Of a stretch of DNA of 44,355 nucleotides, positions 2,941-12,821 are shown one piece after another (positions within the stretch are counted from its first letter, which is position 1; each line of letters starts with the position of its first letter). The notes under the pieces are model-generated. The model was not told the origin of the DNA. It saw nothing but the letters and a program-made list of their open reading frames with translations, and made no database searches. The translations under genes were made by a program, and so were the position numbers. Source of the DNA: a virus; IMG/VR virus record IMGVR_UViG_3300025940_000004, positions 1 to 44,355 of that record. The stretch is one strand, 5' to 3'.

Positions 2941-3165
2941 TCATAGAGGGGTGTGCATTTCCTGATCGTGGTGTGCCGCAGCCGCCGTGTCAGCGGGGTC
3001 GAAATACTGCCCGCAAGTGGTGCATTCGATTTCACCGGCCGGCTCCAGAACGCTCAGGATCAAATCCAGGTCGTTCGTGGTCAGGTGGGTCTCCTCGCAT
3101 ACCTCTCCGTCCTCGAAGGACTGGCGGAATAGACGAAGGCGGGTGAGGGATTGTGCTAGGCTCAT
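2941..3165 (-). CDS. Small zinc-finger-like protein
   Basis: 74 residues. ECTTCGQYF (CxxC) followed by a His cluster (AAAAHHDQEMH) looks like a single C2H2-type zinc knuckle at the C-terminus. The rest is a charged helix-rich segment with TTNDLDLILSVLE. Located 13 bp upstream of the next leftward gene. Role unknown; small treble-clef or C2H2 proteins of this size are common in phage early regions and sometimes inhibit host enzymes. Confidence 0.6.
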   Translation of the reverse strand: MSLAQSLTRLRLFRQSFEDGEVCEETHLTTNDLDLILSVLEPAGEIECTTCGQYFDPADTAAAAHHDQEMHTPL

Positions 3166-3183
3166 GCTGGCTCACTACCCCAA

Positions 3184-3237
3184 ATCGAAACGCGAAGCGA
3201 TATGACGCGAAGCGGCATAGCCCGAAGGGTGAGAGCT
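3184..3237. repeat. Triloop-hairpin element, copy R1
   Basis: Intergenic. Read on the + strand it holds three successive mini-hairpins: CGC-GAA-GCG (3191-3199), CGC-GAA-GCG (3206-3214) and CCC-GAA-GGG (3221-3229), ending in GAGAGC. The downstream tail GGATAAG...TCC...ACCATAC is shared with copy R2. Stems differ from those of the other copies but still pair. Confidence 0.7.
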
Positions 3238-3292
3238 GGATAAGGTCCAAATACATCTACCATACCCTATCCCTCCTTTAATGCTGCGGTGA

Positions 3293-3517
3293 TCATGGAT
3301 TGCCACGATCCTGTATCGACTGGCGCTTGCATCGCTCGATGATAAACACCCGAGTTCGCTGAACCAAATCGGCCGCTCCAGCCGCATTGCGATCTCGGCT
3401 AGCCTGCATGATACACCACGTTTGGAGCTTGCTTAGATCGTCCAGCAGGGCGCTTGCTTCGTCGTCCGTTGATCGCGGTGGCAGGACCGTAACCCCAACC
3501 CTCTCTACCATACTCAT
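3293..3517 (-). CDS. Hypothetical phage protein
   Basis: 74 residues, mostly helical by composition: a hydrophobic N-terminus (VERVGVTVLPPR) followed by a charged helix (DDEASALLDDLSKLQTW) and a basic C-terminus (FIIERCKRQ). Two starts are possible, Met1 and Met3 (3517 or 3511). Not recognised. It is followed by the R1 hairpin element before the next leftward gene. Confidence 0.55.
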   Translation of the reverse strand: MSMVERVGVTVLPPRSTDDEASALLDDLSKLQTWCIMQASRDRNAAGAADLVQRTRVFIIERCKRQSIQDRGNP

Positions 3518-3578
3518 TCTATTAGTTCCTTTGTTGGGATGGCTAGGGAGAGGTTGGGCGCATCCTTCGGACCGGGTG

Positions 3579-3980
3579 CTAAGCCTTCGGCTCGGAGCCA
3601 GCTTCGCCGTCTCCGCCCATTCGGGTAACGCCCCCTTGCGCGATCATCGGATGATCTATCGTTTGCAAATTGGCTGGCGGCGAGGGGATAAAGGCGCGCG
3701 TCCACATTTTGACAGCCGTCGCGCTGCCAGCAATTGGTTTGCCGTTGCCCCAAATCGTCCAAACCCGCGAGCCATCGGTAGCCCAGATTACAACTCCATC
3801 TGGAGTTGGCTCGGCCCTATCATGCCAGTCAGCGACGCTTGTCGGGATCATCTGGTCCGCCGGCCACGCTCGTTTGGCAGCCTCGATGTCGCGCTCGATG
3901 TCTTGCACCTGCATGTTCACATATTGCAGCAGATCGCGGGATCGCTCAGCCAGACCGCGCAGTCGTTCGTCCAAGTTCAT
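3579..3980 (-). CDS. Hypothetical phage protein, coiled-coil N-terminus
   Basis: 133 residues. Residues 1-42 are a charged amphipathic helix (MNLDERLRGLAERSRDLLQY and onward), then a Trp-rich globular part (VVIWATDGSRVWTIWGNG). The ATG at 3980 is preceded by AAAGGA at good distance. Not recognised. It lies between the R2 element upstream and the 3293-3517 gene downstream. Confidence 0.6.
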   Translation of the reverse strand: MNLDERLRGLAERSRDLLQYVNMQVQDIERDIEAAKRAWPADQMIPTSVADWHDRAEPTPDGVVIWATDGSRVWTIWGNGKPIAGSATAVKMWTRAFIPSPPANLQTIDHPMIAQGGVTRMGGDGEAGSEPKA

Positions 3981-3998
3981 ATTCTATCCTTTAGCCCC

Positions 3999-4052
3999 GA
4001 TTGAAGCGCAACGCGACGAAACCCGTAGGGGTTCGGCCCGAAGGGCGAAAGC
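3999..4052. repeat. Triloop-hairpin element, copy R2
   Basis: Intergenic. Three hairpins on the + strand: GCG-CAA-CGC (4006-4014), a 6-7 bp stem around ACCC-GTA-GGGG (4018-4034, one A/G mismatch) and GCCC-GAA-GGGC (4036-4046), then GAAAGC. It is followed by the GGATAAG...ACCATAC tail also seen after R1. Confidence 0.7.
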
Positions 4053-4080
4053 GGGATAAGCTCCTGAAAACATTACCATA

Positions 4081-4320
4081 CTAAAAGCCTTTCGGAGCAG
4101 GGGAGGGGTTATGCTGGGCCTTAGCGATGTGAGGCGGTACATAGCCGCTCGCGAACGCGGTAAGGCAAACCTCAACTGGCCCTGTCACGGTGCGCTTACC
4201 GCTCTCCCACATGCGGACGGTGTGCCCTGGCTGCTCACCGGACAGCATAAGCCAAAGGCCCAACTCAGTCTGAGTCAGGCCCAAGGCGCTTCGTATGGAT
4301 TTTACCTCTGATGGGTTCAT
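4081..4320 (-). CDS. XRE-family helix-turn-helix regulator
   Basis: 79 residues from MNPSEVKSIRSALGLTQTEL, a textbook Cro/CI helix-turn-helix: helix 2 LTQTELGLWL and recognition helix near HTVRMWESGKR. Proteins of this kind usually start just before SEVKSIR, so 4320 is chosen; an in-frame ATG at 4413, one base after the stop of the upstream small gene, would add 31 residues. It is the second gene downstream of a good leftward promoter beside attP, so it may regulate int/xis or the distal left operon. DNA target unknown. Confidence 0.75.
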   Translation of the reverse strand: MNPSEVKSIRSALGLTQTELGLWLMLSGEQPGHTVRMWESGKRTVTGPVEVCLTAFASGYVPPHIAKAQHNPSPAPKGF

Positions 4321-4414
4321 GATTTGGCCTGCCACTGAGAAGGAAAGCGGATTAGGGGTTACGCCCGCACAGGTTACGCTGTGTCCGCTCCCCATCTCAA
4401 TGGCAGGCTTCATC

Positions 4415-4561
4415 TTAGTTCCACACGGGCCGCACGACGAAGCGAACGGCCCCGTAGGCGTCATCTTGGCGATCGGCGAACCGATAAGCCTGATCTCGGT
4501 TCTTATAAGTGGCAACGACCTTTTGGGTCTGTGCATCGGTGACTTCGTAACGGTCTGCCAT
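4415..4561 (-). CDS. Conserved small phage protein (48 aa)
   Basis: A short gene reading MADRYEVTDAQTQKVVATYK, ending PVWN. The pattern of a YEVTD strand, KVVATYK and a Tyr/Asp-rich helix is familiar from small phage proteins of unknown role. ATG at 4561 has GGGAGA about 8 bases upstream and a sigma70-like promoter at 4609-4637, so it is the first gene of that transcript. It is too short for most ORF length cut-offs. Folding as a small beta-beta-alpha unit is inference. Confidence 0.65.
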   Translation of the reverse strand: MADRYEVTDAQTQKVVATYKNRDQAYRFADRQDDAYGAVRFVVRPVWN

Positions 4562-4608
4562 CTTTGTTCTCCCTCATCAGGTGGGCCGCTGGCCCGTGGT
4601 GTGAGAGC

Positions 4609-4637
4609 ATTAGTAACAGAGTTACGGGTATCGTCAA
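4609..4637 (-). promoter_or_regulatory. Leftward sigma70-like promoter next to attP
   Basis: On the - strand TTGACG (4637-4632), 17-bp spacer, ACTAAT (4614-4609). It points toward the 48-aa gene and the XRE regulator. Its -35 box lies only 7 bp from two integrase arm-type repeats (4645-4663), so integrase binding could affect it. A GGGCC/GGCCC hairpin (4583-4595) sits in the leader. Confidence 0.55.
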
Positions 4638-4644
4638 GCACAAA

Positions 4645-4663
4645 GTGGGCAAAAAAGTGGGCA
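4645..4663 (+). promoter_or_regulatory. Candidate integrase arm-type sites (left pair)
   Basis: Two direct copies of GTGGGCA at 4645-4651 and 4657-4663, 12 bp apart, on one side of the attP core. Three more same-strand copies lie on the other side (4813-4849). This arrangement is what P4/lambda-type integrases use for arm binding. Assignment is by position and repetition only. Confidence 0.6.
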
Positions 4664-4683
4664 GACAGAAAATTTATTGAGGG

Positions 4684-4709
4684 CAGTTCGAATCCCACCC
4701 TCTCCGCCA
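4684..4709 (+). other. attP core: tRNA-Ser 3' end
   Basis: The segment contains TTCGAAT (T loop), CCCAC (3' T stem), CCTCTCC (3' acceptor strand), discriminator G and CCA ending at 4709: the 3' end of a serine tRNA. The 5' T-stem half is not complementary (GGCAG where GTGGG is expected), so this is not a tRNA gene but a copy of its end. That is the usual identity segment by which a phage reconstitutes a tRNA after integration. Its place just upstream of the integrase supports attP. Confidence 0.8.
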
Positions 4710-4812
4710 GAGGTCTTTCGCCGGGGTTCGCTGAAGATCGCGAACTCCTCCTGTGAAGGCCAAATTCCGTCGCTGACGTTCGCTTGCGTTCACTGCCGAG
4801 CGCGGTCCATAG

Positions 4813-4849
4813 GTGGGCAATCGGTGGGCAGGGAATCGCGTAGTGGGCA
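4813..4849 (+). promoter_or_regulatory. Candidate integrase arm-type sites (right triplet)
   Basis: Three direct copies of GTGGGCA at 4813-4819, 4824-4830 and 4843-4849. The last one contains the GTG start codon of the integrase gene itself, so binding here would overlap int translation initiation and possibly transcription. Confidence 0.55.
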
Positions 4850-6012
4850 GATTGACGGCTCGTAAGGTTGAGATGTTGACGGAGCCGGGCCGCTACTCGG
4901 ATGGCGGCGGGACCGGCTTTCACCTGCGAGTCACCCCTGAGGGCGGCAAATATTATGTCCTTCGAACGACTGTCGCGGGCAAGCGCAAGGACTTCACCCT
5001 CGGCTCGGCCAAGCGCGTCACCCTGGCAATCGCGCGGGAGAAAGCGCGCCGCTTGCAAGAGGGGATCGATGCCCACGGCACGGCTTTGCCCACTGAGATC
5101 CCCACTTTCGAGCAGGCTGCACGTTCTGCCCACAAGGCGCTGACGGCGGGGCTGAAGAACGCCAAGCATAAGGCGCAATGGCTCTCCACGCTCGAAACCT
5201 ACGCGTTTCCCATCGTAGGCGACAAACCGGTCAACCAGGTAGAGCGCGGCCATGTTGTGGAGATACTTTCTCCCATCTGGCTCGACAAGCGCGAGACCGC
5301 CGACCGGACTTTGCAGCGAATCGATCGGGTTATGAGCTGGGCTGTCGGCAACGACTACCGCAACAGCCGGGTAGACATGGCGCTGGTCCGCGATGCACTC
5401 CCACGGCGCGGCAGGCGCAAGCGGTCCGATATTCGCCGTATGCCCGCCATACCATGGATCGAAGCGCCAGCTTTCTACGCTGCAATCCCGATGAGCCGAA
5501 GCGTGGTCGAGGTTCGCATGGCGATGGCCTTCTACCTGCTCACCATACCAAGGCCGGGAAATATATATCTTGCCAAGCGCGGGCAGTTCGATCTCGACGC
5601 CGCTGTGTGGACTGTTCCAGGCGCGGAGATGAAGAATGGGGAGCCGCATCGCTTCCCGCTGTCGCCCGCCGCAATCGATATCGTGCGATCGATGATGGAG
5701 ATGCATGATCATGATCTGCTGTTCACCGTGACCGGCAAGCCAATGTCGCCTGACACGCTGCGGATGATGATGCGGAGGATGGGGCGAACCGAAGTGCCGC
5801 ACGGTTTCCGCTCCACGTTCAAGGATTGGGCAAGAGCCTTGGGCTATCCTGACGACCTGAGCGAAATGGCACTGGCCCATAGCGATCCTAACGAGGTGCG
5901 CGCCGCCTATGCCCGCGCCGACCTGCTTGAAGAGAGGCGTCCTATGATGCTTGCTTGGTCCGAATACTTGGCAGGGAAGCCGCATATTCTCGCAAGCTCT
6001 CCACAGGGATGA
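4843..6012 (+). CDS. int: Tyrosine-recombinase integrase (P4-like)
   Basis: 389 residues from the GTG at 4843, giving the typical GRLTARKVEMLTEPGRYSDG start of the N-terminal arm-binding domain (DUF4102 type), a SAM-like core-binding domain, and the catalytic domain. Catalytic residues visible: Arg237 (IPRPGN), His320-x-x-Arg323 (PHGFRS), His346 (MALAH) and nucleophile Tyr356 (AAYARADLLEERR). It catalyses integration at attP, which lies about 130 bp upstream and matches a tRNA-Ser end. It is the only rightward gene inside the leftward arm, and its 3' end overlaps the convergent excisionase by 71 bp, so the two messages are antisense to each other there. Confidence 0.93.
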   Translation: MGRLTARKVEMLTEPGRYSDGGGTGFHLRVTPEGGKYYVLRTTVAGKRKDFTLGSAKRVTLAIAREKARRLQEGIDAHGTALPTEIPTFEQAARSAHKALTAGLKNAKHKAQWLSTLETYAFPIVGDKPVNQVERGHVVEILSPIWLDKRETADRTLQRIDRVMSWAVGNDYRNSRVDMALVRDALPRRGRRKRSDIRRMPAIPWIEAPAFYAAIPMSRSVVEVRMAMAFYLLTIPRPGNIYLAKRGQFDLDAAVWTVPGAEMKNGEPHRFPLSPAAIDIVRSMMEMHDHDLLFTVTGKPMSPDTLRMMMRRMGRTEVPHGFRSTFKDWARALGYPDDLSEMALAHSDPNEVRAAYARADLLEERRPMMLAWSEYLAGKPHILASSPQG

Positions 6013-6145
6013 CCGTGGACCGGCCCTGCTTTTTCGCCTCGATCTTGCCGGCGTTGATCAACTCGTAGAGATACGTCTTGCCGCAGCCGATCATGGCCGC
6101 GCCACGGTCGGGGCTGACAAGGATCGGGTAGTCGTTGTCGTTCAC
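5942..6145 (-). CDS. Excisionase-like helix-turn-helix protein
   Basis: 67 residues from the GTG at 6145, which has GGAGGG 7 bases upstream. Residues AAMIGCGKTYLYELINAGK and VESLREYAASL form the winged-helix layout of MerR-like/excisionase proteins (HTH_17). Convergent with int and overlapping its end, as Xis genes often are. It would bind attP and direct excision on induction, when the leftward early promoter is on. The frame is open upstream to 6193, but that part is encoded by the R3 hairpin element and is unlikely to be translated. Confidence 0.75.
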   Translation of the reverse strand: MNDNDYPILVSPDRGAAMIGCGKTYLYELINAGKIEAKKQGRSTVIPVESLREYAASLPSIRTKQAS

Positions 6146-6163
6146 AGATACCCTCCATACGCC

Positions 6164-6238
6164 TGATCGAAGTCGCGAAAGCGAGCGAGACACGTAGTGG
6201 CTCGACCGAAGGCGAGAGCAGGTTGCCGCCGCAGGCGG
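6164..6238. repeat. Triloop-hairpin element, copy R3
   Basis: Intergenic, between the excisionase and the 6248-6748 gene. Four hairpins on the + strand: TCGC-GAAA-GCGA (6173-6184), CAC-GTA-GTG (6191-6199), CTCG-a-CC-GAA-GG-CGAG (6201-6216, one bulged A) and CCGCC-GCA-GGCGG (6226-6238). Linkers GAAG, GAGAC and GAGAGCAGGTT match copy R4. Confidence 0.75.
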
Positions 6239-6247
6239 TCGTCCAGC

Positions 6248-6748
6248 TTATTCAATGACTTCCCCCCTACTAACAGTAGATAGAGCGCGAGCCCTTAAGC
6301 TGGCTGAGCAGAGAGCGAGGGCGGGTGTGGCGGCGTTGGACTGTTGTTCGTCCATCCAATATCGCCGGAAGTGACCGCCCACCTCGGCATCCTCGTAGCG
6401 GCTCACCGACGCGAAACCTGCCACCTTGTCGTCATCCCAAAGGGTGCGAACGGAGAAGAGCGAGCCCTCCGGTACCAGCATCCTCGCGGCATCGATGCTG
6501 GCGGTGAAGCTCGTCTCGAATGCGAGCCGGGCGAGACAATGAGGGTTTGCGCTATCGAAGAACTGTTGAAGCGCCTTGCCCGCCGAACCGTCTCGCTCGA
6601 TGCACTTGCGAACGTATCCGGTGCGGTCATAAACCTCGGCGATCATGTCGGGTGGTCGCGTTGCCCACCAAATCGACCCATCAAGCTCCAGATCTGGCCC
6701 CGTCGCCGCTTCGCATCGTTCCGCAAGGTGGATCATATCATTATTCAT
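6248..6748 (-). CDS. Conserved phage protein (LAERCEAATGPD type)
   Basis: 166 residues from MNNDMIHLAERCEAATGPD, a common opening of a phage/prophage protein family of unknown function. The family's C-terminal pattern is also present: TASIDAARMLVPEGS, an EDAEVGGHF stretch and a small alanine-rich helix near the end. The start at 6748 agrees with the family and overlaps the upstream gene's end by 8 bp. Probably cytoplasmic; no catalytic motif visible. Confidence 0.7.
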   Translation of the reverse strand: MNNDMIHLAERCEAATGPDLELDGSIWWATRPPDMIAEVYDRTGYVRKCIERDGSAGKALQQFFDSANPHCLARLAFETSFTASIDAARMLVPEGSLFSVRTLWDDDKVAGFASVSRYEDAEVGGHFRRYWMDEQQSNAATPALALCSASLRARALSTVSRGEVIE

Positions 6749-7079
6749 GTGGGGTCCTCGGTGTGGATTGGCGCTTCCAGCGCGTCTCGTACGCGGCCAG
6801 CTTTTCGACGGTGACACCCTTGCGCTCGGCAACGATGGGATGCTCTTCCAGCAACCAGCGGGCGTCTTCCCAATCGAAGTCCCACAGCGCGATCCATTCA
6901 TCGCTGGACCAAGTGCCGTGCAGCTTGTTGAGCTCGATTTCCGCCTCGCGACATTCGGGATGATAGCCCAGCGTTCCAAAGTCGCCGTCGGTCATGCCCG
7001 CCCACCGGACCATAGGCTGGCCTATTTCTACGGGCGCAGGGCATGCGTCACAGCGATGCTGCTTACGGACGGATTTCAT
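6741..7079 (-). CDS. Small Cys/His phage protein
   Basis: 112 residues starting MKSVRKQHRCDACPAP. CDAC and a later YHPEC give a possible four-ligand zinc site at the N-terminus; the C-terminal two thirds are acidic and Trp-rich (DEWIALWDFDWEDARWLLEE). The start at 7079 avoids a low-quality upstream extension. Similar proteins occur in alphaproteobacterial prophages without known function. Confidence 0.6.
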   Translation of the reverse strand: MKSVRKQHRCDACPAPVEIGQPMVRWAGMTDGDFGTLGYHPECREAEIELNKLHGTWSSDEWIALWDFDWEDARWLLEEHPIVAERKGVTVEKLAAYETRWKRQSTPRTPHE

Positions 7080-7099
7080 GCGCCTTTCGCTTGAGAAGC

Positions 7100-7768
7100 T
7101 CACAACCCCTCCCCAGTGAGAGAAGCCAAAGCGGTGCGGGCGCGTTGACGGTTTTGGTCGGCCTCGCGGGCGATGTCCTCTAAGGCTATGCGCCAAACAC
7201 GCGGAGCATCCATGTCGTCTCCGTCGGCAATCCTGCTCCGAGCGTGATCCGCATGATCCTGAAAATCAGCCGCCGCATCCTCCAGCGCCTCCCGTGCTTT
7301 CCCCACCACATCGGCAGCGAAAGGCCCCGAGCCGCAAGAATCGCGGATGATCCAAGCGCAATGCCGGATACCTCCCAGCGTTCCGTTAGCGTGCGTCTGA
7401 CGGACAAGCCCTAAATCCCTCGGTGATTTTGCATCCAGGGCGAGGATTGTATCTGCGGCAATGCGTAGTCCCACATCGATAGATGCGGGGAGAAGGGAGA
7501 GAATGTCGTCGGCCTTGGCGAGCGATACGGCGCAATCCACGCCTACCTTACTGATCGAATAACCGTGATGATTTCCAGCCTCAATATCATCGTGGGCCTG
7601 CCAAGTTTCAGGATCAACAATCCGCGCAATCGCCTCTCTCACCCCGGCATTGCTCTCCGGGACAAGGTCTTTGGTGGCGCCGATAGTCCATGAAGGGCGG
7701 ACACATTCAGCGTGATCCACTCCGTCTGCACACAGGGGGCAGCACGCTCCTCGCACGTCAGGCGTCAT
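7100..7768 (-). CDS. Hypothetical phage protein with N-terminal Cys cluster
   Basis: 222 residues. The N-terminus has CCPLCADGVDHAEC, a compact set of Cys and His that may bind zinc. The remainder is helical and Ala/Asp-rich (DVVGKAREALEDAAADFQDH). Of two Mets, the second (7768) is preferred because GGGAGG lies 7 bases in front of it and directly abuts the first. It overlaps the end of the preceding gene by 11 bp. Not recognised. Confidence 0.6.
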   Translation of the reverse strand: MTPDVRGACCPLCADGVDHAECVRPSWTIGATKDLVPESNAGVREAIARIVDPETWQAHDDIEAGNHHGYSISKVGVDCAVSLAKADDILSLLPASIDVGLRIAADTILALDAKSPRDLGLVRQTHANGTLGGIRHCAWIIRDSCGSGPFAADVVGKAREALEDAAADFQDHADHARSRIADGDDMDAPRVWRIALEDIAREADQNRQRARTALASLTGEGL

Positions 7769-8384
7769 GGCCATCCTCCCAGGGAATGTCAGCGGCGAAG
7801 GCTTCTGCAGCCTCGTCCAGTTCCTTCATGTCGGTATCGTTGTCGCTGTAGGCGCAGACGCGGGCGGCAATGACGAGCCGGCGAACGCGGTCGCTTACGT
7901 CCTGGGCGGCTTCGCGAGTGTGTTGGGGGGTGGCGGACGGCCACATATGCTCGGTGGCCTTGGCATGGAGCAGGAAGCGTTCGAATAGCTTAATGAACTG
8001 CTCAGCGTCCGCCCTTCGCGCGAACCGAAGGGCAAGGTTAGCGTCCTTCACGCGCGTGACATGGCTTAAGTATTTGCGATTCTCATATTCCTCATTGAAG
8101 TATTCCCGCCTGGACCGGGGCCATTGAATATCGGCCAGTGCGATCCAGTGCGTGAAGCCGCCCGCATCTTCCTCGATCAGCCATCCGGTCTCCGCCTCCC
8201 GCTCCCCATCCCTCGAAAGCGCTAGTGTTTCTTCCTCGAAACGGGCGAAGACTTCTACAACGGGATCGTCATCACCGCGTCCCGATCGGGCATACTGAGC
8301 CGAAATGGCGCGCTCGCAGCACTCCAGTGCATCAGCCGCCGCATCGCGCGCCCTCTGGCTCACTATCCTTGTATTATTGGTCAT
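7758..8384 (-). CDS. Hypothetical phage protein
   Basis: 208 residues starting MTNNTRIVSQRARDAAADAL. Acidic and helical, with a central FTHWIALADIQWPRSRREYF segment and a C-terminal region rich in short helices. The ATG at 8382-8384 overlaps the stop of the MazG-like gene (ATGA), which supports both the start and co-expression. No known motif was identified. Confidence 0.6.
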   Translation of the reverse strand: MTNNTRIVSQRARDAAADALECCERAISAQYARSGRGDDDPVVEVFARFEEETLALSRDGEREAETGWLIEEDAGGFTHWIALADIQWPRSRREYFNEEYENRKYLSHVTRVKDANLALRFARRADAEQFIKLFERFLLHAKATEHMWPSATPQHTREAAQDVSDRVRRLVIAARVCAYSDNDTDMKELDEAAEAFAADIPWEDGHDA

Positions 8385-8887
8385 GGTGCCACCTGACTGG
8401 TCAGCTTGTGCGGGAAGCCTTGCTTGTCCGAAGTGGCGTTGAACTTGGAGACCGTAGCGGCCTCCAGATCCACGCCCTTCCGACGTGCGAGCTTGTCCAG
8501 GCAGATCAGGACATCGGCGCATTCGTCGGCGAAATCTTCCGGGGTGGCTCTCGATCCACGCCAGCCGGCTTCCTCGCGGACCAGCTTTTTGACCACGTTC
8601 AAAAGCTCGCCGACCTCACCGCCAAGCTCGGCCGCGTCGAACAGAATTCCGGCGTCGGCTCGGACTTCCTTGGTCAGGGTGCCGTGCGGCCGCGTGAAGC
8701 TATGCTCTTGCGGTGTGAACGGGGCGATGCAGAAGTTGTGACCCGACGCCGCTGCACTTCCCTCATCGCGGCCACAATGCTCGCAAAGCATGATCGGCTC
8801 GGTCGTCGTGACCCACGCCTCATATCGCTCCGCGTTCACCCGACGAAGTTGCGAAAGAAAGCTCTCGCGTGTGATCTCATTTCCCAT
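8381..8887 (-). CDS. MazG-like nucleotide pyrophosphohydrolase
   Basis: 168 residues. The C-terminal domain carries the MazG signature: ELGGEVGELLNVVKK (ExxE-type metal ligands) and DECADVLICLDKLA (ExxD) about 37 residues later, followed by KFNATSDKQGFP, like the end of phage MazG-type proteins. The N-terminal 70 residues hold LCEHCGRDEG and a lone Cys, possibly a zinc-binding add-on. Such enzymes hydrolyse (d)NTPs; in phages they are proposed to adjust nucleotide or alarmone pools. Start at 8887, overlapping the upstream gene by 11 bp. Confidence 0.75.
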   Translation of the reverse strand: MGNEITRESFLSQLRRVNAERYEAWVTTTEPIMLCEHCGRDEGSAAASGHNFCIAPFTPQEHSFTRPHGTLTKEVRADAGILFDAAELGGEVGELLNVVKKLVREEAGWRGSRATPEDFADECADVLICLDKLARRKGVDLEAATVSKFNATSDKQGFPHKLTSQVAP

Positions 8888-9134
8888 TTCTATTAGCCTG
8901 TAGGAGGGTGGTGCGGAGAAGGGCTTCACGGATTGCGTCACCAAGCGGCGTGAGAAGATCACCTCCCCTCCATGCCTCAACCGCGAGGCCCTTTGCCCGA
9001 AGCGCTTTCATGCGTCCGGGGCACTTCATGCGGCTCGTTAGTGGCGTCTCACGGGCAGCCAGAAGCATTCGCCTCTGCGCCGCCGTCAGCCCATTTAGGA
9101 TTGCCTGTTGGGATTGGGTGAGGGTGTCAGTCAT
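8877..9134 (-). CDS. Small helical protein, possibly winged helix
   Basis: 85 residues beginning MTDTLTQSQQAILNGLTAAQ. The layout of three short helices, a basic segment (RMKCPGRMKALRAKGLAVEAW) and LTPLGDAIREALL resembles a small winged-helix domain ending in the typical LTPLG turn. The start at 9134 overlaps the stop of the 53-aa gene at 9131 (ATGA). DNA binding is plausible but not proven. Confidence 0.6.
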   Translation of the reverse strand: MTDTLTQSQQAILNGLTAAQRRMLLAARETPLTSRMKCPGRMKALRAKGLAVEAWRGGDLLTPLGDAIREALLRTTLLQANRNGK

Positions 9135-9292
9135 TGGGCGTCTCCCACTTCGTGGGCCGGGCCACCATCGGCTTCGCCGACCGAGCCCGTAGTCTCGGCG
9201 CTGCGCGTAGGTGTCCCTGACGCGAGGCGCCGCTCCGCCTTTTGGTCCTGTTCGTCGATCAAATGCTGAGCGATCAAATCGTAGAGATTCAC
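9131..9292 (-). CDS. Small phage protein (53 aa)
   Basis: GTG start at 9292 with AAGGGA about 7 bases before it; product MNLYDLIAQHLIDEQDQKAE and a Gly/Ala/Glu-rich tail, stop at 9131-9133 overlapping the next ATG. A longer frame in another register covers the same DNA but has a poor, Arg-rich composition, so this one is preferred. The C-terminal part coincides with two strong GAA-triloop hairpins (9144-9180). Function unknown. Confidence 0.55.
   Translation of the reverse strand: MNLYDLIAQHLIDEQDQKAERRLASGTPTRSAETTGSVGEADGGPAHEVGDAQ
9144..9180. repeat. Pair of triloop hairpins, possible inverted relative of R elements
   Basis: On the - strand: TCGGC-GAA-GCCGA (9180-9168) and CCCAC-GAA-GTGGG (9156-9144), preceded by GAGACTACGGGCTCG, which resembles the linker and second hairpin of copies R3 and R4. 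Unlike R1-R5, the GAA loops lie on the - strand. It lies inside the 53-aa gene. Treated as a tentative sixth member. Confidence 0.4.
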
Positions 9293-9326
9293 GCTGTATT
9301 CCCTTCATCTAATGACCAGACCACGA

Positions 9327-9659
9327 TCACAGCTTCATCTCCGCGCGTTTGTTTGCGGCTCTGGTGCGCCATGTCTCCCAGCGTATCTTGAGGAAGTCGG
9401 CTTCAGCCTTCGCCAAGCCCGCTTCCAGATCGGCCAGGTAGTGTTCGTTGACGGCGGTTTCGTATTGCTCGGTTGCCATGGCGAGCTGTTCGGATTCCCC
9501 GACCGCCTTGCCGTCCGCGCGGAATTTCTTGACGAGCTGGGCGCGAATGATCTTGCGGCGCTCGTCCAGACGTGACGCCTCGGATTGCTTACGGGCGCTG
9601 TCCAGCATCGCCAGACGTAGACGCTCCATGCCTTCGTCAACCGGGTCCATATTGCTCAT
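9327..9659 (-). CDS. Coiled-coil phage protein
   Basis: 110 residues starting MSNMDPVDEGMERLRLAML. Nearly all of it is charged helix with heptad-like spacing (KQSEASRLDERRKIIRAQL, then LADLEAGLAKAEADFLKIRW), so a coiled-coil dimer is likely. ATG at 9657-9659 overlaps the stop of the HNH-like gene. It lies in the recombination segment of the left operon (HNH-like nuclease, ERF), so a helper role in recombination is possible but not shown. Confidence 0.6.
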   Translation of the reverse strand: MSNMDPVDEGMERLRLAMLDSARKQSEASRLDERRKIIRAQLVKKFRADGKAVGESEQLAMATEQYETAVNEHYLADLEAGLAKAEADFLKIRWETWRTRAANKRAEMKL

Positions 9660-9931
9660 CGCGCCCTCACTTCGAAATTGTGGCGGTTCAGGATCGACCA
9701 TTGGACAAGATCCCAGCCGGTCTCCTCAAGAAATTGCCGTTCGCCGCCGAGCCCGTGCACGCCCTTTTTGCCTTGGTGGCAGGCGGCACAGAGCTTCATC
9801 ACAAGCCAGTCATCTTTGGTGATGCGCTGGCCGTTGACGTGGATAATGTGATGGACATGCTCAGACGGTGCGCCACAGGGGCACGTGTCGGGCAGCCAAT
9901 CCCAATATCGTTTGATCGCGGCGGACGGCAT
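9656..9931 (-). CDS. HNH/Ref-like nuclease
   Basis: 91 residues. CPCG (Cys17, Cys19), HHIIH (27-31) and LCAACH (Cys48, Cys51, His52) form the zinc-finger/HNH frame seen in RecA-dependent nuclease Ref and DUF968-like phage nucleases; the segment after it (GKKGVHGLGGERQFLEETG) fits those families. It would cut DNA, perhaps during recombination. It stands two genes downstream of the ERF annealing protein. The exact family cannot be fixed by eye. Confidence 0.65.
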   Translation of the reverse strand: MPSAAIKRYWDWLPDTCPCGAPSEHVHHIIHVNGQRITKDDWLVMKLCAACHQGKKGVHGLGGERQFLEETGWDLVQWSILNRHNFEVRAR

Positions 9932-9941
9932 CTATCGCGAC

Positions 9942-10169
9942 CTAGAACGGCGAATCGTCGTCAAGGTCGGGGGCCGCGCTGCCACGCTCACCGTCCTTGG
10001 GTAGTGGCACGCGCAGATGGATAGAGAACTGGCCTTCCACGCTCGCGGGCATGGCATCCAGGCGCACGATCCAACCGCCGCCTTTCGACTGGAAAGCCGC
10101 GCCGATTTTGGTCCAGTAGCTCTTGCCGTTGCTTTCACGCACCGTAAGCGCGTCGAGACGATCTGCCAT
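9942..10169 (-). CDS. Conserved small phage/plasmid protein
   Basis: 75 residues. The pattern NGKSYWTKIGAAF, GGWIVRLDAMP and FSIHLRVPLP is a small beta-barrel-like protein repeatedly found next to recombination genes in proteobacterial phages and plasmids. Its start codon overlaps the ERF stop (TAATG). Function is unknown; a single-strand DNA-binding accessory role would fit the place but no direct motif shows it. Confidence 0.65.
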   Translation of the reverse strand: MADRLDALTVRESNGKSYWTKIGAAFQSKGGGWIVRLDAMPASVEGQFSIHLRVPLPKDGERGSAAPDLDDDSPF

Positions 10170-11095
10170 TATCCTGCGTTCCTTCTTGCTACAGCGGACA
10201 ACCCGCTTTCGAATTGATCCCGCTCCTTCTCGAAGCGGCGACGGTCGATGTCGTTCAGGCCATCGATCAGGGTTTCATTGGTGGCGCACCAAGCGGTCAG
10301 GCCCTTGAGCGTCTCGCATTCCTTCATGGAGCGCATCAGCTCGAACACCATGCCGCCGAAGCTCTCGCGCTTGTCGGCAATCTGACCTGCGACACCGCGC
10401 TTTTCAGGCGTGCCATCGCCTTCCCACCATACGGGCAGATCCCGCTGGCATTGGGTCAGTGCCTCGGCATATTCCACCTCAAGCGCGTCCACAGTCTGCA
10501 CGTCGCCAGCGTCAAGCAGCTTGTTGACGAACTCGCGTAGCGCCGCCTGTAGCTGCGACTTGCTGGGGTATTTGCCTTCCAGCTTCTGACGCGGCGCGGG
10601 CTCGTCGCGAGGGGCAACGTCATGCGTGGTCGCGTCGGCGTCGTTGTCGCCCTCGGTGGGGATCGCAAACGCCATGAACGCGGCATATTTGTAGGCTGCC
10701 GACATGGCCTTGTTCGTGGCCTTGTCGCCACTGTCCATCGCCTCGCCATAGGTGCGAACGGTATGTGCCGAGCCATCCTCGACAGCGACGAAATCGAACT
10801 CCGCTTCCACGGTGACGTAGAACAGGACGCTCTCTTTCTTCTGACCGTTCCATTCCTTGATAGTGACGCGCTCATGCATCTCGCGGTTGACGATGCGAGG
10901 CAGAACGCAAAGGCCGTGCTTCGATAGCAATGGGGACAGCGCCCCATAGACGGCATCGATCCCGCGAAACTTGTAGTTCTGCGAGGCGTTCTCGCTCTCC
11001 TTGGCGATGCCTACCTTGGCAAGCTCACCTTGGACGGCTGCGATTGCCGTATAGACGGCAGGCGGACCCGCCTCAATTTTCGTCGGCGCGTTCAT
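10169..11095 (-). CDS. erf: ERF-family single-strand annealing protein
   Basis: 308 residues. The first ~160 residues match the P22 Erf superfamily: YTAIAAVQGELAKVGIAKES, NYKFRGIDAVYGALSPLLSK, then FDFVAVEDGSAHTVRTYGEA, MDSGDKATNKAMSAAYKYA and a FAIPTEGD end. The C-terminal half is a variable, Glu-rich helical tail. It anneals complementary single strands in phage recombination and in circularisation of terminally redundant DNA, which suits a P22-like, probably headful-packaging phage. Coupled by ATGA to the upstream DUF2493 gene and by TAATG to the next gene. Confidence 0.9.
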   Translation of the reverse strand: MNAPTKIEAGPPAVYTAIAAVQGELAKVGIAKESENASQNYKFRGIDAVYGALSPLLSKHGLCVLPRIVNREMHERVTIKEWNGQKKESVLFYVTVEAEFDFVAVEDGSAHTVRTYGEAMDSGDKATNKAMSAAYKYAAFMAFAIPTEGDNDADATTHDVAPRDEPAPRQKLEGKYPSKSQLQAALREFVNKLLDAGDVQTVDALEVEYAEALTQCQRDLPVWWEGDGTPEKRGVAGQIADKRESFGGMVFELMRSMKECETLKGLTAWCATNETLIDGLNDIDRRRFEKERDQFESGLSAVARRNAG

Positions 11096-11535
11096 CGTGA
11101 AACCTCTGGCGCGTGTCCGGCTTCGTCGGACAGAGGCGCGCTTGCCTGACCATTAAGGTCCGAAGCGGCGTTGGATTTTTCGCGCTCGTCACGAACGCAA
11201 ATCTCACGCTCAATCGCTTGCTCAACGGCATTCGCCGTGCCCCGATCTCCGGGGAATGCGATCAGCTTGTAAATCGGCAGAAGGCTGAACATCCAACCGT
11301 TGCGGATTGGACCGGCAGGCTTTCCATAGAATTTCCAGAGCGCCTCGACACCGATGCAGGGCACGCCATTTTCACGGCACCACCGCTTCGCGAGCCCGTC
11401 AGCCCCTTGGCTTGGCGTCGGGCATTCACCCTGAACAACTACGCCGGGACGCTCCTCGTCCAGTACGCGTTTGACGTGGGCGTAATCGGAGTAATACCGA
11501 CCTCCGCTGACCGCGATCCATACTAGATCGGTCAC
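11092..11535 (-). CDS. DUF2493 / SLOG-superfamily protein
   Basis: 147 residues from GTG at 11535 (GTGA overlap with the preceding stop). The N-terminus VWIAVSGGRYYSDYAHVKRV and the motifs SQGADGLAKRWCRENG, GKPAGPIRNGWM and AFPGDRGTANAVEQA are the DUF2493 (YAcAr) branch of the SLOG nucleotide-binding fold. SLOG proteins bind or sense nucleotide-derived ligands; for DUF2493 the ligand is not established. It sits directly before erf. A counter-defence or nucleotide-salvage role is inference. Confidence 0.8.
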   Translation of the reverse strand: MTDLVWIAVSGGRYYSDYAHVKRVLDEERPGVVVQGECPTPSQGADGLAKRWCRENGVPCIGVEALWKFYGKPAGPIRNGWMFSLLPIYKLIAFPGDRGTANAVEQAIEREICVRDEREKSNAASDLNGQASAPLSDEAGHAPEVSR

Positions 11536-11831
11536 AGCCAGCCCTTCCACACAGCCACGCCCACAAGCAGTAGGGCCATGGCGAAACCGGATGCGATATT
11601 GGCGGTGAAGCCCATTGCACGGGGAGCCCATGCAAGCGCGTCCAGCTCATGCGCCTGATCGAAGCGCGGAGCGGCGAGACCGGAACGGGCTCGATCCGAA
11701 GGACGAGAGCAGGTTCCGCGAAGCGGCGCCCAAAGATCCATCTCAATCTTCCCAGAAGAACGAGAGAAATCCCTCAACACACGTTCCCTCTGCACAGCCA
11801 CATCCTGCCAATCTAATGGGGGCCTGTTCAT
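11532..11831 (-). CDS. Small membrane-anchored protein containing a repeat-derived segment
   Basis: 99 residues. Start ATG 11829-11831 overlaps the upstream stop and its own stop overlaps the next GTG, so both ends are coupled. The last ~25 residues (ANIASGFAMALLLVGVAVW) are one membrane helix. Residues about 36-58 are encoded by hairpin element R4, read in frame as CSRPSDRARSGLAAPRF. This suggests the element entered a coding sequence without breaking it. The N-terminal 35 residues are charged and unknown. Confidence 0.55.
   Translation of the reverse strand: MNRPPLDWQDVAVQRERVLRDFSRSSGKIEMDLWAPLRGTCSRPSDRARSGLAAPRFDQAHELDALAWAPRAMGFTANIASGFAMALLLVGVAVWKGWL
11659..11726. repeat. Triloop-hairpin element, copy R4
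   Basis: Four hairpins on the + strand: CGC-GGA-GCG (11665-11673), CCG-GAA-CGG (11680-11688), CTCG-a-TCC-GAA-GGA-CGAG (11690-11707, bulged A) and CCGC-GAA-GCGG (11716-11726). It is closest to R3. Unlike R1, R2, R3 and R5 it lies inside a gene (11532-11831). Confidence 0.75.
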
Positions 11832-12034
11832 GACGAGAGCCTTTCCACGATGCGGTAGGCGATGATGTCGGTTGGCTTCCCATTGTGCCTCCACCAGTCA
11901 TCGCCATCACCAAGACTGTAAACGCCAGCATCCGCAGTGTCGGTTTCGTCTCCAAAGCCCGCACACCTCACCATGACGCGCGTATGTGGATCGACAGGAC
12001 ATTCTCCACCGTTCCACTCAATCCAGTCGGCCAT
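11828..12034 (-). CDS. Small conserved phage protein (WIEWNGG type)
   Basis: 68 residues: ADWIEWNGGECPVDPHTRVM, then a Gly/Asp loop, DDWWRHNGKPTDIIAYRIVE. This opening (WIEWnGG.cPV) and close (DIIAYRI) are shared by many short phage proteins of unknown function. The gene at 40918-41112 (WVEHDGSETPPV at its start) looks like a distant paralogue. Overlaps the upstream gene by 17 bp and the next by ATGA. Confidence 0.65.
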   Translation of the reverse strand: MADWIEWNGGECPVDPHTRVMVRCAGFGDETDTADAGVYSLGDGDDWWRHNGKPTDIIAYRIVERLSS

Positions 12035-12260
12035 TTCTCGCCTCCCTATTCTTCTTCCAACGCCCTTCTATGGCTGCCATTTCAGCGCTCTCAGGCGTTC
12101 TGTTTGAGATCATTTCACGAAGGGTTTCTGCTGAGGTAAGCAGATTATGAAGGGCGTCAGGGATACTCTTGGGCGCATCCGCTATGCGGACCGGGCTCGC
12201 GGGCTTCGCCTCAAGCCGCTGCGCGTCTTGACCAAAGGCGCTGATCCCTTGCGCGATCAT
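12018..12260 (-). CDS. Hypothetical phage protein
   Basis: 80 residues beginning MIAQGISAFGQDAQRLEAKP. Helical and charged, with SIPDALHNLLTSAETLREMI followed by a basic tail (EGRWKKNREARNGRLD) that could contact nucleic acid. ATG at 12258-12260 overlaps the exonuclease stop. Not recognised. Confidence 0.55.
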   Translation of the reverse strand: MIAQGISAFGQDAQRLEAKPASPVRIADAPKSIPDALHNLLTSAETLREMISNRTPESAEMAAIEGRWKKNREARNGRLD

Positions 12261-12706
12261 GCCGCAGCACTCAGCTTGTGCCGCAGAGCCCTCGCATCCC
12301 ACCAAGCGTTATGCTGGACAGCGCCGGGAAGATCGGTCGGATAACAATCAACATTCTCGACCGTGAAGGTCATCCGCTCGTAATCTGCGCTCGCCCAGCC
12401 GCCATCTTCTCCGGTCGATACGGCTTGGCAAAAGCGCGCAATGTCCACAGGACTATCAGCGATAACGTGCGGCTGCGGATCGCCACCGATGAAATCCCGA
12501 ATGTCTCCGCCAACCCAATCGGTCATGGTCATGAAGTCGGCGTCTTGCTCGGTCATGAGCGGCCAGACATTCGCGATGACCCAAGGGTCTTTGGGTTCAG
12601 CCAGGGTGCGAATGTGGATGCTAACCCCATCCTCGCGAACCATGGCCAAGCTGAGCAGCGGCCCATCGTGCCCGTCAAACTCGCAATCGATGTAGTAGCG
12701 GCTCAT
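12257..12706 (-). CDS. DEDD-type 3'-5' exonuclease (Rv2179c-like)
   Basis: 149 residues starting MSRYYIDCEFDGHDGPLLSL. Exonuclease motif I is DCEFD (Asp7, Glu9), motif II lies in VIADSPVDIARFC, and motif III is HNAWWDARAL (His, Asp), which together give the DEDDh metal-binding set. Size and order fit the short Rv2179c-like 3'-5' exoribonuclease group found in phages and mycobacteria. Substrate could be RNA or DNA; position next to recombination genes does not decide this. The frame is open far upstream, but the R5 element lies there and MSRYY is the family-like start. Confidence 0.8.
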   Translation of the reverse strand: MSRYYIDCEFDGHDGPLLSLAMVREDGVSIHIRTLAEPKDPWVIANVWPLMTEQDADFMTMTDWVGGDIRDFIGGDPQPHVIADSPVDIARFCQAVSTGEDGGWASADYERMTFTVENVDCYPTDLPGAVQHNAWWDARALRHKLSAAA

Positions 12707-12727
12707 GATTTTGCTCCCGCGAAAGTC

Positions 12728-12803
12728 GATTGAAGCCCGGAGGGGCAAGACAACGAAGTTGGCTTGATCTGCGAAGCAGACGAAAGCGCGGTGCCGAAGG
12801 CAT
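12728..12803. repeat. Triloop-hairpin element, copy R5
   Basis: Intergenic, just before the exonuclease gene (leftward). Four hairpins on the + strand: CCC-GGA-GGG (12736-12744), CAAC-GAA-GTTG (12751-12761), TCTGC-GAA-GCAGA (12768-12780) and TGCC-GAA-GGCA (12792-12802). The stems share little sequence with R3/R4 yet pair fully. Confidence 0.7.
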
Positions 12804-12821
12804 TCGCCATGAATACTTGTC

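Follow-up and report, generated by a model that had tools for sequence, protein, structure and literature searches.

Seven copies of one element in the phage window

The 44,355-nt stretch of virus DNA (the window; IMG/VR record IMGVR_UViG_3300025940_000004) carries seven copies of one element of about 70-90 nt, with E1 to E5 on the + strand and E6 and E7 inverted. The first-pass annotation had described five hairpin elements on the + strand, all in the leftward early arm. Their positions and their confinement to that arm held, but two copies of opposite orientation had been overlooked, and orientation relative to the genes is mixed. Its parts are the outer stem P0, stem P1 (interrupted by an A·G mismatch) and three hairpins, usually with a fourth; the middle one of the three stands on a second stem that carries another A·G mismatch. 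The copies and associated reading frames are as follows (bit scores are matches to model R1).

3177..3246, + strand: E1, 5'-type, antisense to the gene starting at 3165; match at 3180-3239, 76.9 bits; P0 ACC/GGT (read from the sequence), P1a CCA/TGG, three hairpins, hairpin 4 absent
3162..3265, - strand: leader reading frame through E1, 33 codons, read from the sequence
3993..4062, + strand: E2, 5'-type, antisense to the gene starting at 3980; 80.9 bits; P0 AGC/GCT, P1a CCCG/CGGG
6159..6242, + strand: E3, 5'-type, antisense to a small excisionase-like gene starting near 6143; 53.9 bits; P0 ACG/CGT, P1a CCTG/CAGG, hairpin 1 loop GAAA, hairpin 4 CCGCC-GCA-GGCGG
9138..9223, - strand: E6, 3'-type, full-length, overlooked earlier, found by the cluster scan; P0 GCGTC/GACGC, P1a GGG/CCC, A·G mismatch, CACC/GGTG, hairpins 1-4
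9131..9292, - strand: small gene, with E6 supplying its C-terminal half (gene call, sequence)
11651..11729, + strand: E4, 5'-type; 84.8 bits; P0 GCG/CGC, P1a CCTG/CAGG, hairpin 4 CCGC-GAA-GCGG
12173..12254, - strand: E7, 3'-type, overlooked earlier; 44.6 bits at 12192-12249 on the - strand; P0 GCGCA/TGCGC, P1a GGG/CCC
12257..12706, - strand: RNase H-like gene (gene call), bracketed in mirror image by E7 and E5
12719..12807, + strand: E5, 5'-type copy of the cassette gene 12257-12706; 45.8 bits; P0 GCGAA/TTCGC, hairpin 4 TGCC-GAA-GGCA

The leader frame through E1 ends in a stop codon that overlaps the start codon of the next gene (ATGA), and E4 falls where a small leftward gene (called at 11532-11741, - strand) encodes its N-terminus. 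E7 begins 2 nt past the end of the bracketed gene, whose product matches phrog_2259, 'RNase H' (E 1.5e-19). A scan of the window for clusters of at least three GNA-triloop hairpins returned three strict clusters on the + strand and one more on the - strand, far above the 0.04 and 0.02, respectively, that an order-3 Markov copy of the window would be expected to give. No known RNA family at gathering score and no tRNA was detected in the window.

Fold, covariation and relation to Flavo-1

The sequences flanking hairpin 2, previously taken for partly kept linkers, are more than that, since they pair as a stem in five of five copies (TATG/CATA, CGAA/TTCG, CGAG/CTCG twice and CAAG/CTTG among E1-E5), parted from the inner stem by an invariant A·G mismatch in all five + strand copies. 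A terminal stem (CCA/TGG, CCCG/CGGG or CCTG/CAGG) surrounds the three hairpins and is itself enclosed by P0, which was read from the sequence in E1-E5 and tested family-wide. Every helix covaries strongly across more than 130 distinct copies from other phages. When 59 copies were aligned by MAFFT on sequence alone, 96.5% of the cells paired, double changes occurred in 12 of 14 pairs, and the covariation score was 0.487; shuffling gave 0.163, and sliding the partners no more than 0.097. Among 136 distinct model-aligned copies, double changes occur in 17 of 18 pairs. Selection on structure with compensatory stem changes, as proposed in the first-pass annotation, is thus strongly supported by both alignments.

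That annotation had left RNA and single-stranded DNA open as the folded form, and the evidence now points to DNA by loop types and rare G·T pairs. G·T accounts for less than 1% of pairs (17 of 2,211 pair cells). Triloops are GNA in 335 of 431 cases, mostly C(GNA)G with every N occurring, and tetraloops comprise 27 GNYA, 29 GNRA, 20 GNAB, 16 CNNG and no UNCG. Taken together, covariation, loop types and the rarity of G·T fit a folded single DNA strand better than they fit RNA or protein coding. When E6 (9138-9223) was folded as single-stranded DNA, the minimum-energy structure equalled both the centroid and the full family structure (z -3.44); the fold of E5 was partial with its hairpins visible, and minimum-energy DNA folding regained the full structure for only some copies.

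The element is distantly related to Flavo-1 (RF01705), an RNA motif from Bacteroidetes without an assigned function, but scores under the family cut-off. E2 aligns to model positions 1-76, the full length, with no broken pair, at 27 bits (E 0.041 in 15 kb, 0.00068 in 251 bp). This was the best score, followed by 25.5 in two virus records, and the gathering threshold of 42 bits was not reached. The earlier statement that no named element has this form is therefore to be amended, in that the core matches Flavo-1 over its full length, but below the cut-off. Shared with Flavo-1 is the P1 core CCCCGAT-N-GAAGCG ... CG-N'-AGCGGGA including its A·G mismatch, and the end of E1, ATAA-GGTCC, is also Flavo-1-like. 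Flavo-1 has been reported from Bacteroidetes, whereas the present copies come mainly from phage contigs with alphaproteobacterial links. Pattern matches in genome contigs all fell in proteobacterial MAGs or Sphingomonas, Bacteroidetes genomes being outside the model search. A Flavo-1-type pattern in viral contigs gave mostly chance matches and no recognisable Bacteroidetes phage, and picked up three copies of the present family. For Flavo-1, no orientation preference relative to transcripts and no link to the transcript strand have been reported (PMC9723704). P0, the fourth hairpin and inverted gene bracketing are not known to have been reported for Flavo-1, and no description of a phage border element of this hairpin form was found in the open-access literature.

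Placement, breakpoints and distribution

Among 184 copies, 96 lie inside called genes, and in 89 of these it is the 5' edge that faces the gene body (89:7, p 3e-19). Copies at gene starts run antisense and those at gene ends sense, with the 3' edge (..CGCCC) pointing away from the gene, so that an inverted pair brackets a single gene. Of 48 inverted (-,+) intervals, 37 contain exactly one called gene, and intergenic copies obey the same polarity rule. Gene-end and gene-start copies also differ in sequence, P1a being GCG in 41 of 72 of the former and 4 of 73 of the latter (p 4e-12). A single leftward 5'-UTR regulatory role was dropped once E6, E7 and the inverted pairs had been found. Degenerate coding remnants, raised in the first-pass annotation, do not describe the copies, which are often translated, yet in more than one reading frame; this candidate was ruled out by mixed frames and compensatory changes.

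In two sets of phages (L063/L137/L107 and L060/L121/L082), gene bodies are unrelated up to the P0 edge and nearly identical beyond it. For element pairs at least 90% alike, gene bodies and outer flanks (the start or stop codon and its neighbouring signals) were each compared between the two copies: the body differed and the outer flank was the same in 9 pairs, the reverse occurred in 0, both differed in 9, and both were the same in 6. This flank comparison of near-identical copies superseded a weaker general test, in which BLAST alignment ends were mildly enriched at elements (36, compared to 24.8 expected). The breakpoint cases are few and come in part from overlapping sets of related metagenome contigs. 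One phage (L042) carries identical copies at 4694 and 12176, in unrelated genes. The RNase H-like gene has 54 viral homologues, most of them without elements, and occurs both with and without them.

Copy number ranges from 1 to 14 among similar phages. The Microviridae, which are ssDNA phages and were found with a longer query, have a single copy per genome, intergenic, always of the GNA form and on the gene-coding strand in eight of eight cases. Dispersed chromosomal copies occur in the order that holds Hyphomonadaceae-type genomes. Among named isolates, Microcystis phage Mvi-Yong1342-1 has both its copies within a single annotated CDS (XAN61317.1). A plain similarity search with copies of 75-81 nt against named phages and plasmids gave chance matches only.

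A putative joint for gene exchange

We consider it probable, on balance, that the element is a small piece of mobile DNA, recognised in the form of a folded single strand and acting as a joint for phage gene exchange; mobility and exchange are read here from comparisons, not observed directly. The element would fold when its strand is exposed, during replication, by end resection or in ssDNA genomes, and a structure-specific nuclease or recombinase, or single-strand annealing via the shared core, could then join or copy DNA at its edges. Gene bodies would be swapped between fixed 'slots' while the element and outer flank stay. The fold would be kept by selection because only folded copies remain usable, and stems might diverge since differing stems would spare the copies in one genome from ordinary homologous recombination. 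The fixed fold with complementary variable stems, the polarity, the edge breakpoints, the exact copying and the occurrence in ssDNA phages all speak for such a joint. The single, one-stranded Microviridae copies fit a fixed function as well as mobility. Against it stand the lack of a shared dedicated enzyme family in the blastp comparison, the mild BLAST-end enrichment and the recovery of the full DNA fold for only some copies.

A selfish palindromic repeat, like REP or the Rickettsia palindromic elements, tolerated at gene edges with no role in exchange, would also account for exact copying into unrelated genes, patchy occurrence at homologous genes and the dispersed chromosomal copies, and the breakpoints would merely be gene boundaries showing through. 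We regard this as rather unlikely, since random tolerated insertion would not predict the polarity, the sequence difference between gene starts and gene ends, or the 9:0 bias to swapped bodies. A single-strand replication signal (a complementary-strand origin, or a primosome or primase assembly site), of which ssDNA phages would use one and dsDNA phages many, agrees with the lone intergenic Microviridae copy on the gene-coding strand and has a precedent in the multi-hairpin ssDNA origins of phiX174 and G4. It seems distinctly unlikely, as it fails to explain why copies sit so close (tens of nucleotides) to start and stop codons, why inverted pairs enclose single genes, or why copy number varies in similar phages.

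The identity of the core to that of Flavo-1, and the location of copies at mRNA-relevant sites, including leader frames with overlapping stop and start, would suit an RNA element working in mRNA (in translation, stability or processing at cistron ends). This reading is very unlikely, given the near absence of G·U, the lack of UNCG and of any preference for GNRA; moreover, gene-start copies are antisense, so that the mRNA holds the complement, with C·T replacing the A·G mismatches. RNA-seq matches of Flavo-1 itself are found in sense and antisense alike, many outside transcripts (PMC9723704). Conservation at the protein level, whereby elements encode useful terminal extensions such as ..AIEARRAETGTGSVHESAV.., draws on the many copies translated as N- or C-terminal extensions and on one frame dominating at gene ends (38 of 51), but is extremely improbable, because all three frames are used (38/9/4 and 22/16/4), stem lengths vary by non-multiples of three, changes are compensatory and many copies lie in UTRs.

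Whether phage mosaicism arises by random breakage followed by selection or by exchange at dedicated border sequences is an old question, and this family offers a concrete, structured border with a directly testable polarity rule. In phages of alphaproteobacteria, the elements may be joints by which these viruses exchange genes. We suggest tentatively, as a possibility we would not yet expect to hold in full, a general phage 'plug-in' system: slots flanked by mirror-image pairs of folded-ssDNA elements, one version for the gene start and another for the gene end, would take up single gene bodies in exchange for others. It would be common to dsDNA temperate phages and ssDNA Microviridae, and Flavo-1 would be the same kind of DNA element misread as RNA. 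The family would also give Flavo-1, listed in Rfam as an 'RNA', a functional lead, and add a non-integron case in which gene borders conserve the shape of the DNA and not its sequence.

Several known systems share parts of this form. Rickettsia palindromic elements are short hairpin-forming repeats inside protein-coding genes, translated with them, and the present copies resemble them in being inserted in ORFs with translation through the element; compared by description only, they differ in that the present family occupies both gene ends in fixed opposite orientation, has covarying, diverging stems and occurs in phages. Like phiX174 n'-pas and the G4 origin, considered from their descriptions, the Microviridae copies place several stable hairpins on the viral strand, whereas those in dsDNA phages are multi-copy and bracket genes. 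Like attC, the element would be a folded single-strand recombination site of conserved shape and variable sequence that borders single genes, but each gene has an inverted element pair where integrons have one attC per cassette, and the ends are GCGNN..NNCGCCC instead of the attC core. Boundary sequences and relaxed homologous recombination likewise involve a short shared sequence at module borders where genomes diverge; there the border is plain homology, while here it is formed by a mobile family with a structure and a rule of polarity. Rad52-like recombinases work on short diverged homology (PMC3945230). No protein family is shared by six element-rich phages and the window (blastp, E 1e-5). 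Among the 49 early proteins of two element-rich phages, a Pfam scan found no ERF, RecT or Rad52, and no phage-encoded HUH (Y1) transposase, the enzyme of IS200/IS605 and REP/RAYT elements, was found among these or the scanned window proteins; a host copy could still act in trans. No integron integrase gene was seen in the window, where the only integrase found is phage-type, and the window encodes an Erf annealing protein.

Copies in the window and their common fold

All five + strand hairpin elements reported in the first-pass annotation (E1 to E5 below) are present at its coordinates, and its count rises to seven with two inverted copies, E6 and E7. A scan for clustered GNA-triloop hairpins recovered the reported elements, where a simulated window would be expected to yield 0.04 clusters, and picked up one extra cluster on the opposite strand. 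A scan for the order stem, A, hairpin, G, stem detected the middle hairpin in each of the five as well as one additional inverted copy.

Element copies in the window (gene-end copies are sense and gene-start copies antisense to the gene)
3177-3246, +, E1, gene-start copy
3993-4062, +, E2, gene-start copy
6159-6242, +, E3, gene-start copy
9138-9223, -, E6, gene-end copy
11651-11729, +, E4, gene-start copy
12173-12254, -, E7, with E5 brackets an RNase H-like gene
12719-12807, +, E5, with E7 brackets the RNase H-like gene

E1 and E2 are each crossed by a short leader frame that has a start of its own (3162-3265 and 3980-4085, -) and stops at or close to the start of the following gene; the outer flanks of these two copies are alike (GTATGGTA..TTATCC) despite different genes. 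The leftward arm that carries the elements also encodes an Erf-type single-strand annealing protein (10169-11095, -; PF04404, phrog_155), and a SLOG-family protein of YspA/cpYpsA type lies at 11092-11550, - (PF10686). Just ahead of the integrase gene (4813-6012), GTTCGAATCCCACCCTCTCCGCCA at 4680-4712, + resembles a tRNA gene 3′ end and is likely to be an attachment site.

The outermost stem, P0, most commonly reads GCGNN..N'N'CGC, and is followed inward by a linker A, the 3-4 bp stem P1a, an A.G mismatch, and P1b, which consists of T-A, a freely varying N-N' pair, and then G.A/A.G or ordinary helix. P1b encloses three hairpins, the middle one on a second stem, P2, set off by another A.G mismatch; on the 3′ side come P1' and GG, then in most copies a fourth hairpin, and finally P0'. 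Hairpin 4 is absent from E1 and E2, which have ATAA in its place. With DNA folding parameters, E6 folded into exactly this structure, which had been drawn up from other copies, while the fold was weaker in some of the others.

In the model-fitted alignment of 136 distinct rows, 94.5% of cells were paired, both sides changed in 17 of 18 pairs, and the covariation score was 0.534 versus 0.145 after shuffling. A second count used 59 copies aligned with MAFFT by sequence alone, to escape the bias of the fitted alignment, and gave 96.5% paired and a score of 0.487, versus 0.163 shuffled and at most 0.097 with slid partners. The inner two positions of P0 were complementary in 86 of 108 copies (13.9 when shuffled). 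Covariation in both alignments thus bears out the earlier proposal, made from compensatory changes, that selection acts on structure.

Distribution of the family

The degenerate pattern GATYGAAGCSCGNAGSGNCGARAC matched 105 stretches of viral contigs, and a narrower version matched 5 loci across all genome_contigs. A covariance model built from ten equal-length copies, whose E-values are rough, yielded 205 hits in loci totalling 0.89 Mb, many of these loci being metagenome contigs and some mutually related; full virus records carried 1 to 14 copies. Among Sphingomonadales, matches occurred in only 6 of 199 genomes, two of which had them in prophage-like clusters. In the order of one MAG, apparently the group holding Hyphomonadaceae, 15 of 150 genomes had a match, several with dispersed, intergenic chromosomal copies, unlike the phage-like clusters of Sphingomonadales. 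Such copies were seen in Hyphomonadaceae-type genomes at L160-L165 and L173-L178 (G032-G035, G291, G330, G344, G354).

Placement at gene edges

According to a purpose-written codon-usage caller, whose gene calls are approximate, 96 of 184 copies lay inside genes, and in 89 of these the gene body was on the 5′ side of the element (7 contrary; p 3e-19): 50 were sense near gene ends, with the stop codon typically 27-75 nt beyond the core, and 39 antisense near gene starts. Intergenic copies obeyed the same polarity rule. Neighbouring copies therefore stood mostly in (-,+) order (53, versus 31, 14 and 11 in the alternative orders), and 37 of 48 (-,+) intervals held exactly one gene. The bracketed proteins were varied and mostly unknown, including HNH endonuclease, dCMP deaminase, DHH phosphoesterase, RNase H-like and DUF1643 proteins. 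In the annotated isolate Microcystis phage Mvi-Yong1342-1, both copies lie within one CDS according to the depositors. The two kinds of copy also differed in sequence, P1a being GCG in 41 of 72 gene-end copies versus 4 of 73 gene-start copies.

Comparison of related loci showed that bodies change at the element. L063, L137 and L107 have unrelated bodies up to exactly P0, beyond which element and outer flank are nearly identical, and L060, L121 and L082 make the same switch. Among 24 copy pairs at least 90% alike, which are partly non-independent, 9 shared the outer flank with different bodies, none showed the reverse, 9 differed on both sides and 6 agreed on both. In L042 one identical element sequence occurs twice, at the end of each of two unrelated genes. 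Of 54 viral-contig homologues of the RNase H-like gene, the covariance model placed elements directly beside only four, so the element does not belong to the gene. Blocks within the element also differ: between L060 (1171-1228, +) and L121 (1049-1106, +) the middle hairpin and its stem have been replaced as a unit, with pairing kept and surroundings about 95% identical, and L083 and L102 likewise differ by the whole of hairpin 4.

Nature of the element and its probable relation to Flavo-1

Stable DNA hairpins favour GNA triloops and the tetraloops cGNNAg, cGNABg and gCNNGc, whereas in an RNA family one would look for GNRA and UNCG loops and some tolerance of G.U. A simple hairpin parser, which also caught some linkers, counted GNA in 335 of 431 triloops, mostly as C(GNA)G with each of the four bases occurring as N, and 128 tetraloops, with GNRA 29, GNYA 27 (chiefly GTCA), GNAB 20, CNNG 16 and UNCG 0; the E6 middle hairpin, C(TACG)G, is an exception. 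G.T accounted for 17 of the 2,211 pair cells, and A.C for 5. Since this composition matches DNA hairpins and not the RNA expectation, the repertoire appears to be that of folded DNA.

The safest statement is that these copies form a family of small mobile elements, conserved in their folded DNA form and having one edge that faces a gene and another that faces outward. Their best-supported function, judged from sequence comparisons, would be as joints of gene exchange, because no other function considered predicts all three of polarity, left/right difference and body swapping. A blastp comparison (E 1e-5) of the window with six element-rich phages revealed no shared protein as exchange agent. 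We retain a signal for single-strand replication as a less likely rival on account of the Microviridae, whose gene-coding strand is the packaged strand. A single copy, invariably with the GNA form on the gene-coding strand, is present in each of two named Microviridae records and of six contigs that either have marker genes of this family or are closely related to contigs that do; the ends in MH572438 are Flavo-1-like.

Single copies in Microviridae
KT264808.1, 1608-1667, named record
MH572438.1, 2712-2770, named record
L098, L056, L066, L109, L123 and L124, contigs

The description of Flavo-1 (RF01705), from Bacteroidetes, gave it no cis-regulatory association (PMC2864571), and its matches in an RNA-seq study were sense and antisense alike (PMC9723704). 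With E2 matching it from end to end at 27 bits, below the cut-off of 42, Flavo-1 is probably a relative, and the DNA reading may extend to it as well. Copies at L147, L151 and L152 (virus records G026 and G027) have no hairpin 4 and have the ends closest to Flavo-1, TAGCCCCGATTGAAGCG..AGCGGGAAATGGCTCC, with 25.5 bits to RF01705.
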